DNA of 20,919 bases, taken from the IMG/VR virus record IMGVR_UViG_3300044612_002263, positions 1-20,919 of that record. One strand, written 5' to 3'. A program made the translations under genes and the position numbers. Under the pieces are notes generated by a model that was not told the origin of the DNA, searched no databases, and worked only from the letters and a program-made list of their open reading frames with translations. Numbering within the stretch: position 1 is the stretch's first letter; every line of letters begins with the position of its first letter. Source of the stretch: a virus. Below, one piece after another: positions 12,816 to 18,372 of the stretch.

Positions 12816-13217
12816 ATGGCTTTTCAGTTTTCGGTAGCAGCGCGTAACGGTGCGCTGGACGCAATCGAAACGGCAGCAGGTACGGCCCCGACACTGACGA
12901 TTCGCACGGGATCTGTCCCTGCCAACTGCGCGGCGGCAAGGGCGGGTACGGTGCTGGCAACACTGGTCCTCCCGTCCGACTGGCTGACAACTGCATCAAG
13001 CGGGTCAAAGGCGCTATCCGGTACGTGGCAGGACGTAGCAGCGGACGCAGCTGGTACAGCGGCTCACTTCAGCATTGATCAGGGCGCTACCTGTCATATC
13101 CAAGGGACCGTAACTGCCACTGGCGGCGGTGGTGACATGACCCTCGACAACACCTCGATTGGCGTAGGTCAACAAGTGACCATCACAGCATTTACCTTGA
13201 CCGCTGGCGGTGCCTGA
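12816..13217 (+). CDS. Conserved phage virion protein, small beta-rich
   Basis: A 133-residue protein with the clear pattern of a widespread phage/prophage family: MAFQFSVAARNGALDAIET, then LTIRTGSVPANCAAA, GTVLATLVLPSDW, KALSGTWQD, HFSIDQGATCHIQGT and a final GGGGDMTLDNTSIGVGQQVT followed by ITAFTLT. The function is not established to my knowledge; the beta-rich fold and its position among head and tail genes point to a virion or decoration role. The start has a canonical AAAGGAG 6 bases upstream, the best ribosome-binding site in this part of the window, suggesting high expression. Confidence 0.8.
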   Translation: MAFQFSVAARNGALDAIETAAGTAPTLTIRTGSVPANCAAARAGTVLATLVLPSDWLTTASSGSKALSGTWQDVAADAAGTAAHFSIDQGATCHIQGTVTATGGGGDMTLDNTSIGVGQQVTITAFTLTAGGA

Positions 13218-13257: not shown

Positions 13258-13467
13258 ATGCAGATTATTGTAACCCCCGGTAAAATCACTTACATTGCCA
13301 GCACCGGGGATTGGCGGCTTGTAATTGGTGAAGGAGCTTTTGCGATTCAGCCGCAAGTAGGCGAATGGGAATATCTATCCGGCGTCAACCTTGACAATCT
13401 TGCTACACTTATTGTTGACGCGAAAGCCGATGCGGTGGAGCGTGGTATTGAATGGAGTAGTAATTGA
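13258..13467 (+). CDS. Small virion-operon protein, unknown function
   Basis: A 69-residue protein starting MQIIVTPGKITYIASTGDW. It is beta-rich at first (VIGEGAFAIQPQVGEWEYL) and ends with a helix (NLATLIVDAKADAVERGIEW). No membrane segment or cysteine is present. Its stop overlaps the next start (TGATG), so the two are probably co-translated. No family recognised. Small size and coupling to a fibre-like gene suggest a chaperone or connector, but this is inference only. Confidence 0.6.
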   Translation: MQIIVTPGKITYIASTGDWRLVIGEGAFAIQPQVGEWEYLSGVNLDNLATLIVDAKADAVERGIEWSSN

Positions 13468-14315
13468 TGGCTGCGCTTACCGACCTTTCGGACCTGATTA
13501 ACCGGCAATCTGGTGGCAACAACGGAACGCCGAACAACATGTTCTTCCACAAGGTAGCCCGTGTTGCAGGCGCGGCTGCGCCAGCTCCAGTCGCCGGTCG
13601 TTCCAATTCCGTGTGGACTTTTGACGGTATGCCAGCAGGGGGTGCAGTGCCGACATCTGCCGCCATCACTGACCGCATGACGCAAGGTGCGCTGCCTATC
13701 ATCGCGCCTGGTGAAGGTCGCGATTTGCACTTGATCGGTGCCAGCGTTCTGCCGCAAATCGCTGGCGTTTATCTGCTCTATGACCGGCTATTTCACGTCG
13801 GCGGACTGAGCGGAACCTCAACTTCCGCGCAGACCGTACAGGGGTCGCCTGCCTCGCCTGCGCTCACGCGCTACACGGACGGCGTGGGCAACATGGCGTG
13901 GTATGAGATTTATAGCCTTCTTGGCACGACCGCGACCACTCTGACCATGAACTACACCAATCAGGCCGGGACTAGCGGACAAACTGCAACCGTCAACATT
14001 GGCTCAACCAATAACCGCGAAGTCACGCGAGCACAGCGCATTCCGCTTGCTGCAGGCGATACTGGCATCCGTGCGATTAGCACTGTAACCTTGGCGGCAT
14101 CGACCACCACGGCGGGCAACTTCGGAATCACCATCGCGCAGCCGCTGGCATGGATACCCGTCGGCTCGACGGGAATGGCGGGCTGGCGCGATTACACGAC
14201 CGGCATGCCGGGTATCCCCACAATCCACCCTGACGCATGTCTTGCGTGGCTGTACACCCCCTTGTCTGGAAGTGCTCCCGAAATATGGGGCTGTCTCAGC
14301 ACGGTGGAAAAGTGA
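13467..14315 (+). CDS. Virion protein, first of two tandem paralogues
   Basis: A 282-residue protein starting MAALTDLSDLINRQSGGNNG. The ATG at 13467 is preferred to a TTG three bases upstream because it makes a TGATG overlap with the previous stop. Residues about 150-225 (RYTDGVGNMAWYEIYSLLG, NYTNQAGTSGQTATVNIG, NREVTRAQRIPLAAGDTGIR, TTTAGNFGITIAQPL) match the next gene closely. The protein is beta-rich with no catalytic motif. From memory this family recurs in phage structural modules, probably as a tail- or head-attached protein. Virion role is likely; location is unknown. Confidence 0.75.
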   Translation: MAALTDLSDLINRQSGGNNGTPNNMFFHKVARVAGAAAPAPVAGRSNSVWTFDGMPAGGAVPTSAAITDRMTQGALPIIAPGEGRDLHLIGASVLPQIAGVYLLYDRLFHVGGLSGTSTSAQTVQGSPASPALTRYTDGVGNMAWYEIYSLLGTTATTLTMNYTNQAGTSGQTATVNIGSTNNREVTRAQRIPLAAGDTGIRAISTVTLAASTTTAGNFGITIAQPLAWIPVGSTGMAGWRDYTTGMPGIPTIHPDACLAWLYTPLSGSAPEIWGCLSTVEK

Positions 14316-14316
14316 A

Positions 14317-15126
14317 ATGGCTTTCGCTAATTATGGAGCATATCTTGAGGCGTTTAAACTAAACCGCGCTTCGGATTTTCAGACAAGCACAATAAACCCC
14401 GCGCAAGGTAGACCAATCGGGTTGTGGCAACTATTCACGCCGAATCCCGCTACCCCGACCACGAGTGTTGCGCTTGACAAAAACTCTTTGCAAAGCATTG
14501 GCTCTGTACCTAATACAACCAGCGGCAAGCTGCAAATCATCGGCGGGCATTTTGCTAACACCGGTGTGGTAAGCGGCGCTTTGATGGCCGTTGACGTGCT
14601 GAATATCTCAGGCGGGATGAGCGCCACCGTTACAACGGAACAGACCACAAACCTGCCGACTGCTGCGCTAACCCGACACACTACGGGCGAAGGCGTAATG
14701 CTCGGCTTATTTATTCTTGGAATTATCGGAACAACGGCGACCACTGTTACCGTGCGCTATACCAATCAAGCCGGGACACCGAACTGCGTAAGCCCTGCAA
14801 CTGTTTTTGGCGGCAGCAGTTTTCGTGAACTAAACCGGTTTATTATTATTCCGTTGCAGGCAGGTGATACTGGCGTGCGCTCAGTCGAGGGCGTGACGCT
14901 GGCCGGAACGACTAGTACGGCGGGAAACTTTGGAGTGTGCTTGCTCAAGCCTTTGACAATTTTCGATCCTGCCTCGACAAGCAACACAAATGTCATTGAT
15001 GCGGTCAGTAGCGGCGGAATGATTGGCGCAATGGCCGAGTTCGATGACGATGCTTGTGTCAGCATTGTGTGCTTTACAACTGTCCAGCAGAATTTTGCGG
15101 GCACACTCCTACTAGCAGAGGCGTAA
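14317..15126 (+). CDS. Virion protein, second of two tandem paralogues
   Basis: A 269-residue paralogue of the preceding gene, beginning MAFANYGAYLEAFKLNRASD one base after its stop. A longer frame begins at 14242, but the overlap with the upstream gene and the paralogue's length favour 14317. Shared core: HTTGEGVMLGLFILGIIG, RYTNQAGTPNC, FRELNRFIIIPLQAGDTGVR, TSTAGNFGVCLLKPL. The N-terminal third differs from the first copy, so the two may attach differently while sharing a C-terminal fold. The role is inferred as particle surface or tail-fibre subunit. Confidence 0.75.
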   Translation: MAFANYGAYLEAFKLNRASDFQTSTINPAQGRPIGLWQLFTPNPATPTTSVALDKNSLQSIGSVPNTTSGKLQIIGGHFANTGVVSGALMAVDVLNISGGMSATVTTEQTTNLPTAALTRHTTGEGVMLGLFILGIIGTTATTVTVRYTNQAGTPNCVSPATVFGGSSFRELNRFIIIPLQAGDTGVRSVEGVTLAGTTSTAGNFGVCLLKPLTIFDPASTSNTNVIDAVSSGGMIGAMAEFDDDACVSIVCFTTVQQNFAGTLLLAEA

Positions 15127-15129
15127 GGT

Positions 15130-16053
15130 ATGGCGTCCCGTCGCCTATTCGACGGCGCGCAGGTCGAACTAGGTCTGTTGCCGATTGTCGGTGCTGTTGC
15201 GCCGCTAAGTGGCATTACCGGCACGGCCTCTGGCACGATCAGCTTCACCGGGACTGCGACTGGCACTGTTACTAACTCCGGAGCAGCTAGCGGCACGCTG
15301 CTACTCACGGGATCTGCTACGGCAACCGCCCTAGTCACCGGGATTGCCAGTGGCACGCTGGAACTAACTGGTGACGCAACAGGCGTCATCGGCAGCGCTC
15401 CGATCACCGCCACCACTTCGGGGACACTGCCCCTTGGTGGGTCGGCAGCGGGTCAGGTAGTTGTATCCGGATCTGCCGCTGGCATCTTGCCCCTTGAGGG
15501 GGGCGCCACTGGTGCCGTCGCAGTATCTGCGGTGGGCAGTGGCACGCTGCCCCTGTCTGGCGCCGCTACGGGCGTCGTCGGCACCGTTCCGATCACTGCC
15601 ACGGCAGCAGGGACACTGCCGCTCGCTAGTACCGCTACGGGCAAGGTCAACGTCGATGGCGCCGCCAGCGGGACGCTGCCGCTCGATGGTGAGGCGACCG
15701 CTTCTGTCCGCGTGTCCGGCGTTGCCACTGGCATCTTGCCACTTGGCGGGACTGGCGTAGCAACGGCTTTGATCAGCGCGATTGCCAGCGGCACCTTACC
15801 GCTCACTGGTAACGCGACCGGCACGGTAGCTACGGCAATCATATCCGGGGTAGCGGCGGGAGATTTGCCCCTTGACGGGTCGGCAACAGGCGCAGTCCGC
15901 GTTATCGGATTGGCGGCTGGTGTCTTTGTGGTCACCGGCACGGCAACGGCGATCGGGCCAGTTCAGTTTGCCACTCGCTTTGCCTTCCCTGGCGATCCAG
16001 CCAATGGCGGCAAACTGAGTATATCACGCCGTGGCGGGCACATCGTTAGGTGA
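15130..16053 (+). CDS. Twelve-repeat beta-solenoid-like virion protein
   Basis: A 307-residue protein almost wholly built of a repeat. Residues 31 to about 280 contain about twelve units of 20 or 23 residues, consensus GxASGTLPLTGxATGxVxVS, each made of two 10-residue halves with alternating small and hydrophobic residues. Such periodicity predicts a beta-solenoid or stacked beta-hairpin shaft. Residues 1-30 are a non-repeat start (SRRLFDGAQVELGLLP). The basic end includes FPGDPANGGKLSISRRG. There are almost no charges in the repeats and no cysteine. A short TAAGGT separates it from the previous gene and AAGGT serves as ribosome-binding site. A spike or fibre shaft is the most likely role; the structure is inferred, not known. 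Confidence 0.72.
   Translation: MASRRLFDGAQVELGLLPIVGAVAPLSGITGTASGTISFTGTATGTVTNSGAASGTLLLTGSATATALVTGIASGTLELTGDATGVIGSAPITATTSGTLPLGGSAAGQVVVSGSAAGILPLEGGATGAVAVSAVGSGTLPLSGAATGVVGTVPITATAAGTLPLASTATGKVNVDGAASGTLPLDGEATASVRVSGVATGILPLGGTGVATALISAIASGTLPLTGNATGTVATAIISGVAAGDLPLDGSATGAVRVIGLAAGVFVVTGTATAIGPVQFATRFAFPGDPANGGKLSISRRGGHIVR
15220..15969 (+). repeat. Tandem 60/69-bp coding repeats, about 12 copies
   Basis: Repeat lengths in residues, in order, are 20, 20, 23, 20, 20, 23, 20, 20, 20, 23, 20 and about 20. The 23-residue units carry a three-residue insert (GVIGSAPIT, GVVGTVPIT, GTVATAIIS). The first two long units are exactly 189 bases apart and nearly identical, so a 63-residue block was probably duplicated. 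DNA copies are otherwise diverged. Confidence 0.8.
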
Positions 16054-16060
16054 GGATTTG

Positions 16061-16387
16061 ATGAGCACTTTTTACATCAAAACTGGCGATACATCACCCG
16101 CCATCCGATACGCACTAGATCCGGCATCGGTGGTGCTGATCGGTGCGACGGTGCGGTTTCACATGCGGCAGCGACGGTCAAGGGGCGGGGCCACCGTGAA
16201 AGATGCTACGGCTGTGGTTGTGACAGCAACGGGCACGCCAACGGTCGAATATCAGTGGGATACAGCCGACACTGCCAACGCTGGCACGTTTGAGGCAGAG
16301 TTTGAAATCACGTATTCCAATGGCAAGATCGAGACATTCCCAAATGACGGATTTATTTCTGTAAAAGTTTCGGAAGACATTAGATAG
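16061..16387 (+). CDS. BppU-like N-terminal domain protein (baseplate/tail adaptor)
   Basis: A 108-residue protein starting MSTFYIKTGDTSPAIRYAL. The pattern of GATVRFHMRQ, then a VVVTATGTPTVEYQWD strand, DTANAGTFEAEFEITYSNG and ETFPNDGFISVKV matches the N-terminal domain of BppU / DUF2479 baseplate proteins, which attaches receptor-binding proteins to the tail tip. Here the domain stands alone, without the usual long C-terminal part. The ATG at 16061 is chosen over upstream in-frame codons because it removes the overlap and has AGGA 6 bases upstream. It is probably a small adaptor for one of the nearby fibre-like proteins. Confidence 0.72.
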   Translation: MSTFYIKTGDTSPAIRYALDPASVVLIGATVRFHMRQRRSRGGATVKDATAVVVTATGTPTVEYQWDTADTANAGTFEAEFEITYSNGKIETFPNDGFISVKVSEDIR

Positions 16388-17680: not shown

Positions 17681-17836
17681 ATGATGACGTGCGGGTTGAT
17701 CCGCCTAATCTGCGAAGAGCCGCAGGATCCCCCGACGCGGGCGCGGTTTGTTGACGTGCCGCCATGGCGTGCCGGCATTGCGACGTTGCTGCTGCGAATC
17801 CGGGGCTGGCGTGTTGTGTCTCGGTGGCCGCTGTGA
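17681..17836 (+). CDS. 51-residue protein coupled to the wall enzyme
   Basis: A short frame with two start codons in a row (ATGATG at 17681) and AGGT just upstream. It ends in a GTGA overlap with the enzyme gene, so it may act mainly as a leader that couples translation. The protein has two cysteines (TCGLIRLICEE) and a basic end (LLLRIRGWRVVSRWPL) with mild amphipathic character. A longer open frame reaches back to 17441, but the GGAAAGCT element and the ATGATG start favour the short form. No family is recognised. Confidence 0.55.
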   Translation: MMTCGLIRLICEEPQDPPTRARFVDVPPWRAGIATLLLRIRGWRVVSRWPL

Positions 17837-18372
17837 AGACACCGGTCTGGCCGCCAGGGATGGTGGGCCCTAGGATCCGGCCTAGCCTGCGACCTGGTGA
17901 TCACCATCTGATCGCCAATGACATTGCCGAAACCATGACAGGGTGGACGCATGACGGGCGTCGGTTGTGGCAAATTCTATGCCTTTGTCGTGGCCAGGGG
18001 ATGGAGACTGAATGGCGTCGGACCGGTGAGGACACCCCGCCGGGGCTTTACCTGATCGGCAAGATTTACCGAGACTACGAAGAGGATCCACGCCCAAGGC
18101 TTACCGCCGATCGTCGCGCCTACGGCTGGTACAGCTTTGATATGGAAGGACAGGAGGGCCAGGAGGGCCCAACAAGCAAGCCGTATCGAGACGGCATCAT
18201 GGTGCATGGTGGTGGCAGTGCCTGCGGCTGGCCTGGAGCGTGGGCGCCAAGGCAGGACCTGTACCCAACCCTTGGCTGCATCCGGCTGCATAACATTGAC
18301 CTGCGCGACCGCATCCTTCCGTTAACGCAACTGGGTCGGATCTGGGTATCAGTGCTGCAGGAGGCGGGCTAG
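17833..18372 (+). CDS. YkuD-fold L,D-transpeptidase-like wall enzyme
   Basis: A 179-residue protein with the active-site pattern of the YkuD (L,D-transpeptidase) family: His125 in MVHGGGSACGW and Cys149/Arg151 in YPTLGCIRLHN, with TPPGLYLIGKI at about 68-78 as the usual leading strand. Members join or cleave peptidoglycan stem peptides using the cysteine. The GTG start overlaps the previous stop as GTGA, giving a start just before the conserved RPGDHHLIANDIAETMTGW region; longer frames only add improbable sequence. No signal peptide is present, so export would need a holin, as for a classical endolysin. It sits after holin candidates, where the lysin is expected. I recall related proteins in picocyanobacterial genomes. 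Lysis versus wall remodelling is not decided. Confidence 0.82.
   Translation: MKTPVWPPGMVGPRIRPSLRPGDHHLIANDIAETMTGWTHDGRRLWQILCLCRGQGMETEWRRTGEDTPPGLYLIGKIYRDYEEDPRPRLTADRRAYGWYSFDMEGQEGQEGPTSKPYRDGIMVHGGGSACGWPGAWAPRQDLYPTLGCIRLHNIDLRDRILPLTQLGRIWVSVLQEAG

Follow-up and report, generated by a model that had tools for sequence, protein, structure and literature searches.

Organization of the repeat protein

The open reading frame at positions 15130-16053 (+ strand) of a viral record probably encodes a tail-associated fibre or stalk of 307 aa, which consists, as sequence comparisons show, of three modules and would be docked through its N-terminus and be exchangeable by recombination within its repeats. 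The record (IMG/VR IMGVR_UViG_3300044612_002263, positions 1-20,919) was analysed along its whole length of 20,919 bases and is referred to here as the window. The three modules, all on the + strand, are an N-terminal plug (residues 1-20, MASRRLFDGAQVELGLLPIV; 15130..15189), an array of twelve repeat units with the consensus TASGTLPLTGSATGxVxVSG (residues 32-280; 15223..15969) and a basic C-terminal tail (residues 281-307, ATRFAFPGDPANGGKLSISRRGGHIVR; 15970..16050). In the proposed mechanism, a plug of ~18 residues would dock the protein on the virion, most likely on what one or both of the adjacent upstream genes encode. The 20-residue units would build up a long, uncharged stalk rich in beta structure, probably oligomeric, and the basic tail would end this stalk and may pair with the product of a downstream BppU_N-like gene. 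Stretches swapped between arrays would bring the upstream genes and plug into new combinations with an array, tail and downstream gene, the cassette being re-fitted by homologous recombination. A sequence-only reading of the window had already described the repeats, which are real, but had missed both the arrangement of plug, array and tail and the exchange of whole arrays. Its proposal of a spike or fibre shaft of changeable length is well, though indirectly, supported as regards the fibre or stalk role, since the plug is common to recognised tail proteins, and as regards the variable length, while a beta-rich fold draws its support from the residue pattern described below.

The array of twelve repeats presented unit lengths of 20, 20, 23, 20, 20, 23, 20, 20, 20, 23, 20 and 20 residues, the 23-residue units being unit 3 (residues 72-94; 15343..15411), unit 6 (residues 135-157; 15532..15600) and unit 10 (residues 218-240; 15781..15849), all on the + strand. 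The self-identity of the protein was 0.435 at lag 63 and 0.343 at lag 20, with a maximum of 0.22 over all lags in 1000 shuffles, and the ten-residue half-units previously described were also seen (0.264 at lag 10). Likewise, the low charge noted before was confirmed, with 11 charged residues out of 252. The rhythm of the lengths had been taken as a sign of growth by duplication of a 63-residue block, which was not supported: units at equal positions of the block did not resemble one another more than other units did (P = 0.29 for DNA and 0.51 for protein by exact permutation), and one, two or three 20-residue units were found between the 23-residue units of relatives, which also contradicts such a block. 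Indeed, the peak at lag 63 is expected, because the 23-residue units interrupt the 20-residue register and all units re-align there. The only unusually close pair was that of the 23-residue units 3 and 6, with 77% DNA identity, while same-length units shared ~50%. Moreover, Tandem Repeats Finder detected nothing in the array at the DNA level, so no recent tandem duplication was found and the units appear to be old and diverged.

The comparison by position covered 85 distinct 20-residue units of the window protein and its relatives. Charged residues appeared 79 times at odd positions and never at even ones, a count for which no exact probability is stated, as the units are of common ancestry. 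Furthermore, glycine was nearly always present at positions 4 and 10, positions 6 and 8 were occupied by L, I, F or V, and positions 16 and 18 mainly by V or I. This odd/even pattern spans both half-units, so that the parity would be kept through the turns, and it fits beta-strands with one buried face. It is from this residue pattern, and not from structural models, that a beta-rich fold draws its support.

Predicted fold

The whole protein was modelled with AlphaFold2 as a single chain together with 11 relatives, giving a mean pLDDT of 42.8, and a five-unit segment modelled with 44 in-register segments reached 53.6, with short strands once per unit. Single-chain models of fibres often score low, and these values are therefore no refutation of a beta structure. 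Foldseek found no significant match for the five-unit model (best E of 1.0 in the PDB and 0.13 in BFVD, values that are meaningless at such model confidence), and searching the PDB by sequence for the repeat protein and several of its neighbours in the cassette yielded nothing useful. The beta-solenoid suggested from the sequence agrees with the odd/even pattern and the regular repeats, and it is neither shown nor refuted by the low-confidence monomer models.

A flexible and largely disordered low-complexity spacer, whose sequence would be of minor importance beyond length and solubility, would also account for the low confidence of the models, for a composition made up largely of A, G, T and S (58%) and for the occurrence of very different arrays in one slot. 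However, disorder requires neither the strict in/out alternation nor L, V or I at positions 6, 8, 16 and 18 nor the absence of charge at even positions. Moreover, the dN/dS of the protein is below 1 and the 23-residue units hold their place across most close relatives, and such a spacer is considered unlikely. In particular, dN/dS against relatives ranged from 0.33 to 0.53, which indicates a protein maintained under selection, with a constraint that appears only moderate (near 0.4).

Gene order around the repeat gene

The window carries genes for a tape measure protein, further proteins of likely tail function, a scaffold and a major capsid protein. The capsid genes are followed by a phrog_3758 gene, a paralogous pair, the repeat gene, a BppU_N-like gene and small lysis-side genes. 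The phrog_3758 'virion structural protein' gene (12816..13217, +; PHROG E 5e-26), which is 76% identical in Pseudanabaena phage Pan4, was identified by alignment as the upstream border of a variable cassette in the window and its relatives. The first gene of the paralogous pair (13464..14315, +) had no Pfam or PHROG match and was followed across the loci by tblastn. The second (14278..15126, +; a longer open reading frame from 14242 is also listed) stops 3 nt short of the repeat gene, and both are candidate docking partners of the plug. Downstream of the repeat gene, the product of 16061..16387 (+) matched phrog_1627 (E 1.9e-7) and, below the cut-off, Pfam BppU_N (E 0.034), the N-terminal domain of the baseplate upper protein. 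Its homologues in tailed viruses are annotated as having a BppU N-terminal domain, and the relatives favoured the ATG at 16061 over the GTG at 16031 as its start. The repeat protein itself matched nothing in Pfam and no PHROG significantly, and hence no tail family known to either; such proteins are left as hypothetical.

The repeat gene lies just ahead of the lysis-side genes, which encode small membrane proteins and, at 17764-18372, a YkuD L,D-transpeptidase domain (E 1.3e-5), unusual for a phage lysis or envelope gene. This position would suit a secreted or host-surface protein, altering the cell envelope for example, rather than a virion component. Such a role is, nevertheless, very improbable, as the N-terminus shows no evident signal peptide and the plug is common to tail proteins.

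The plug in other proteins

Plugs were searched for in IMG/VR using a degenerate DNA pattern for LFDGAxxELG (used as an exact pattern), which matched 62 stretches. The motif lay near the start of an open reading frame in 47 places, one of them being the separately fetched locus of podovirus ctCJ8213. Four of the 47 (L051, L058, L072 and L077) were evident chance matches and were left out. Among the 43 credible open reading frames, 42 had a homologue of the gene at 13464 or 14278 ending at most 77 nt upstream (tblastn), the exception (L026) starting at a contig end. This association may reflect mere linkage as well as docking, given that the array separates the plug and upstream genes from the tail and downstream gene.

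The window plug was common to loci L019-L027 and further IMG/VR contigs whose remaining sequence differed, loci L019-L022, for instance, carrying other bodies. As many contigs were near copies, these were removed by the first 60 residues of the body, leaving 26 bodies, which fell into 12 groups (BLASTP, E 1e-4, no masking), although a missing BLASTP link is no proof of unrelatedness and one group may be chained. Repetitive bodies accounted for 24 of the 26 (autocorrelation z of 3.9 or more), with best lags from 20 to 68. Furthermore, the plug started two proteins with PF06605 Prophage_tail (L076, 9e-36; L078, 1e-38), and plug proteins belonged to PHROG tail families (minor tail for L076, L078 and L094, and tail for L086), the match falling outside the plug itself in these four. 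In ctCJ8213 the plug, as LLFDGASNELGKIPV, started a protein that carries an alginate lyase domain (PF05426, E 1e-18) and repeats of another kind, its gene lying directly 3′ of the homologues of both genes of the paralogous pair. The pair's homologues in Rctr197k came after a homologue of the baseplate wedge (phrog_6, E 2e-22), and in Caulobacter phage Seuss the phrog_3758 homologue was found between the central tail fibre J and holin genes. Taken together, the plug on tail proteins and these three contexts favour a location in the tail. The plug may also serve as a sequence handle for tail-fibre genes whose bodies vary too much for homology searches.

A location on the head has to be weighed against this, since the cassette of the window is 3′ of the major capsid gene and phrog_3758 is filed under head and packaging. 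Here the repeat protein would be a capsid-attached head fibre similar to that of the Rhodobacter gene transfer agent (RcGTA), in which the 325-residue fibre Rcc01080 binds its base, Rcc01079, through residues 2-10, the rest being flexible (PMC7296036). There, a short N-terminal peptide followed by a flexible, polysaccharide-binding fibre is held on a jelly-roll pentamer, as could be imagined for the window protein, but the nine-residue peptide of RcGTA (PMC7296036) is IALGLGLGL, while the plug of the window reads LFDGAQVELG. A short cassette standing alone among cellular genes in a Rhodobacter MAG with GTA-type genes would also agree with a head fibre. Against it, the plug also starts recognised tail proteins, and the phrog_3758 profile matched neither a head-spike base nor any other solved chain (best E 1.3, unrelated). 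Sequence and profile comparison of this neighbour with solved chains found no homologue of the RcGTA base. A head fibre is considered unlikely. A standard GTA component was rejected, as phrog_3758 was present in only 2 of 248 genomes of the family of the MAG, one of them being the MAG itself.

Relatives of the array and exchange within it

The same array was found in fourteen IMG/VR loci, with the plug (~18 residues, LFDGAxxELG), the array and the basic tail recurring as modules. The idea that length changes by repeat number holds, as 3 to 13 units were present across relatives, whole units having been gained or lost between them. Besides the window plug (MASRRLFDGAQVELG), these loci presented the N-termini M(A)LRIRVP, GAFNATLEPRAWFD and DVQKGYGGRL, while a fifth N-terminus, FDPAIFDGAIFD with a Gly_rich_2 domain, appeared in Pan4 and the Microcystis phages. 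Each of the four N-termini other than the window plug was also accompanied by its own upstream genes. At the other end, the C-terminal tail was present in all complete relatives except L017 and L018, which also had no downstream BppU_N-like gene.

Plasmids gave no match to the repeat protein, and prokaryote genomes gave a single relative, in the Rhodobacter MAG, where the C-terminal tail was present as well. This locus (L035:8267-10682) is a short cassette between cellular genes, in the order phrog_3758 gene, 139-aa gene, ~264-aa gene, three-unit repeat protein and BppU_N-like gene, while the GTA-type capsid and TIM-barrel genes of the MAG lie on another contig. It is possibly the remnant of a fibre locus or a domesticated one.

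One relative, L010, combined the N-terminus of L008 with the C-terminus of L005, and the break fell inside the array. To its left, 91 of 100 informative sites matched L008, and to its right 91 of 105 matched L005, 205 sites in all, a contrast not equalled in any of 5000 shuffles (P<2e-4). By these site patterns, at least this relative is a recombinant within the array. In addition, the window itself was patchy relative to L012, being 98% identical near its end and ~50% near its start. The break in L010, this patchiness and the gain and loss of units point to the array as a zone of homologous exchange, dividing the plug and upstream genes from the tail and downstream gene. A more tentative proposal, with somewhat less than even odds, is that one plug of ~18 residues, next to a presumed receptor pair, accepts many unrelated arrays, and that the arrays provide the homology for trading whole stalks with their tips. 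Differing, recombining arrays may in this way let phages re-fit the parts that would contact the host, and, if the contact between plug and upstream protein is true, the old question of how phages change such parts without rebuilding the tail becomes directly testable.

Exchange of the same kind was observed in another type of cassette, in Microcystis phage Mwe-JY26 (L044:10807-13311), where an N-terminus of the LRIR type is followed by a different 20-residue repeat (ASGIQDGDTFGSS...) and the preceding genes are homologous to those found upstream in the LRIRVP loci. Another repeat protein, gp39 of Seuss (L043:11177-11983), made of IAASLSKTM... units, lies in the region bounded by the phrog_3758 homologue and the lysis genes.

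Comparison with known systems

The arrangement of plug, array and tail fits the known theme of modular phage fibres. A study on Alteromonas phages describes a host-recognition module common to distant phage backbones (PMC10579305). There, a fibre and its chaperone are shared, whereas here the common element is an 18-residue plug with ~12 dissimilar repeat bodies and exchange takes place within the array. As for the shaft, the triple-stranded beta-helix of the T4 gp5 type (central spike) resembles the array in its regular short repeat, its inward hydrophobic residues and a length set by the number of repeats (PMC4576200). However, gp5 has an eight-residue VxGxxxxx motif, which the array lacks, its period being of 10/20 residues with a ten-residue half-unit. 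Neither Pan4 nor 20-residue repeats of phage tails were the subject of any paper found, in a search where subscription journals were not widely covered.

The counterparts in Pan4 (Pan4_26) and in Microcystis phages Mae-JY02 and Mel-JY03 (L002-L004) belong to the same repeat class, being 51-52% identical over 84% of the query and also having 23- or 24-residue units, and their genes come after a phrog_3758 homologue and one further gene. They differ from the window protein in the N-terminus (FDPAIFDGAIFD plus the Gly_rich_2 domain), in the C-terminus and in an unrelated phage backbone. In Mae-JY02 and Mel-JY03, they are named glycerophosphodiester phosphodiesterase (L002:18828-20720; L004:18831-20720), a name taken from an enzyme domain of which no sign was found. 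The window protein had no Pfam match to the GDPD domain of this deposited name, and Pan4_26, of the same architecture, had only Gly_rich_2. Microbacterium phages ValentiniPuff and vB_MoxS-R1 encode proteins in which a GDPD domain is indeed present and precedes similar 10/20-residue repeats of small and hydrophobic residues, but their match to the window protein was not significant (E 0.2) and their catalytic domain is absent from both the window protein and Pan4_26. Since the Pan4 counterpart has only Gly_rich_2 while these phages with similar repeats do have GDPD, the name appears to be an annotation error that spread by way of the repeats. The annotation of an NAD-dependent DNA ligase in the tail region of Mae-JY02 and Mel-JY03 (L002:9735-11645; L004:9735-11645), at the place of the hypothetical Pan4_13, looks doubtful judged by its position.
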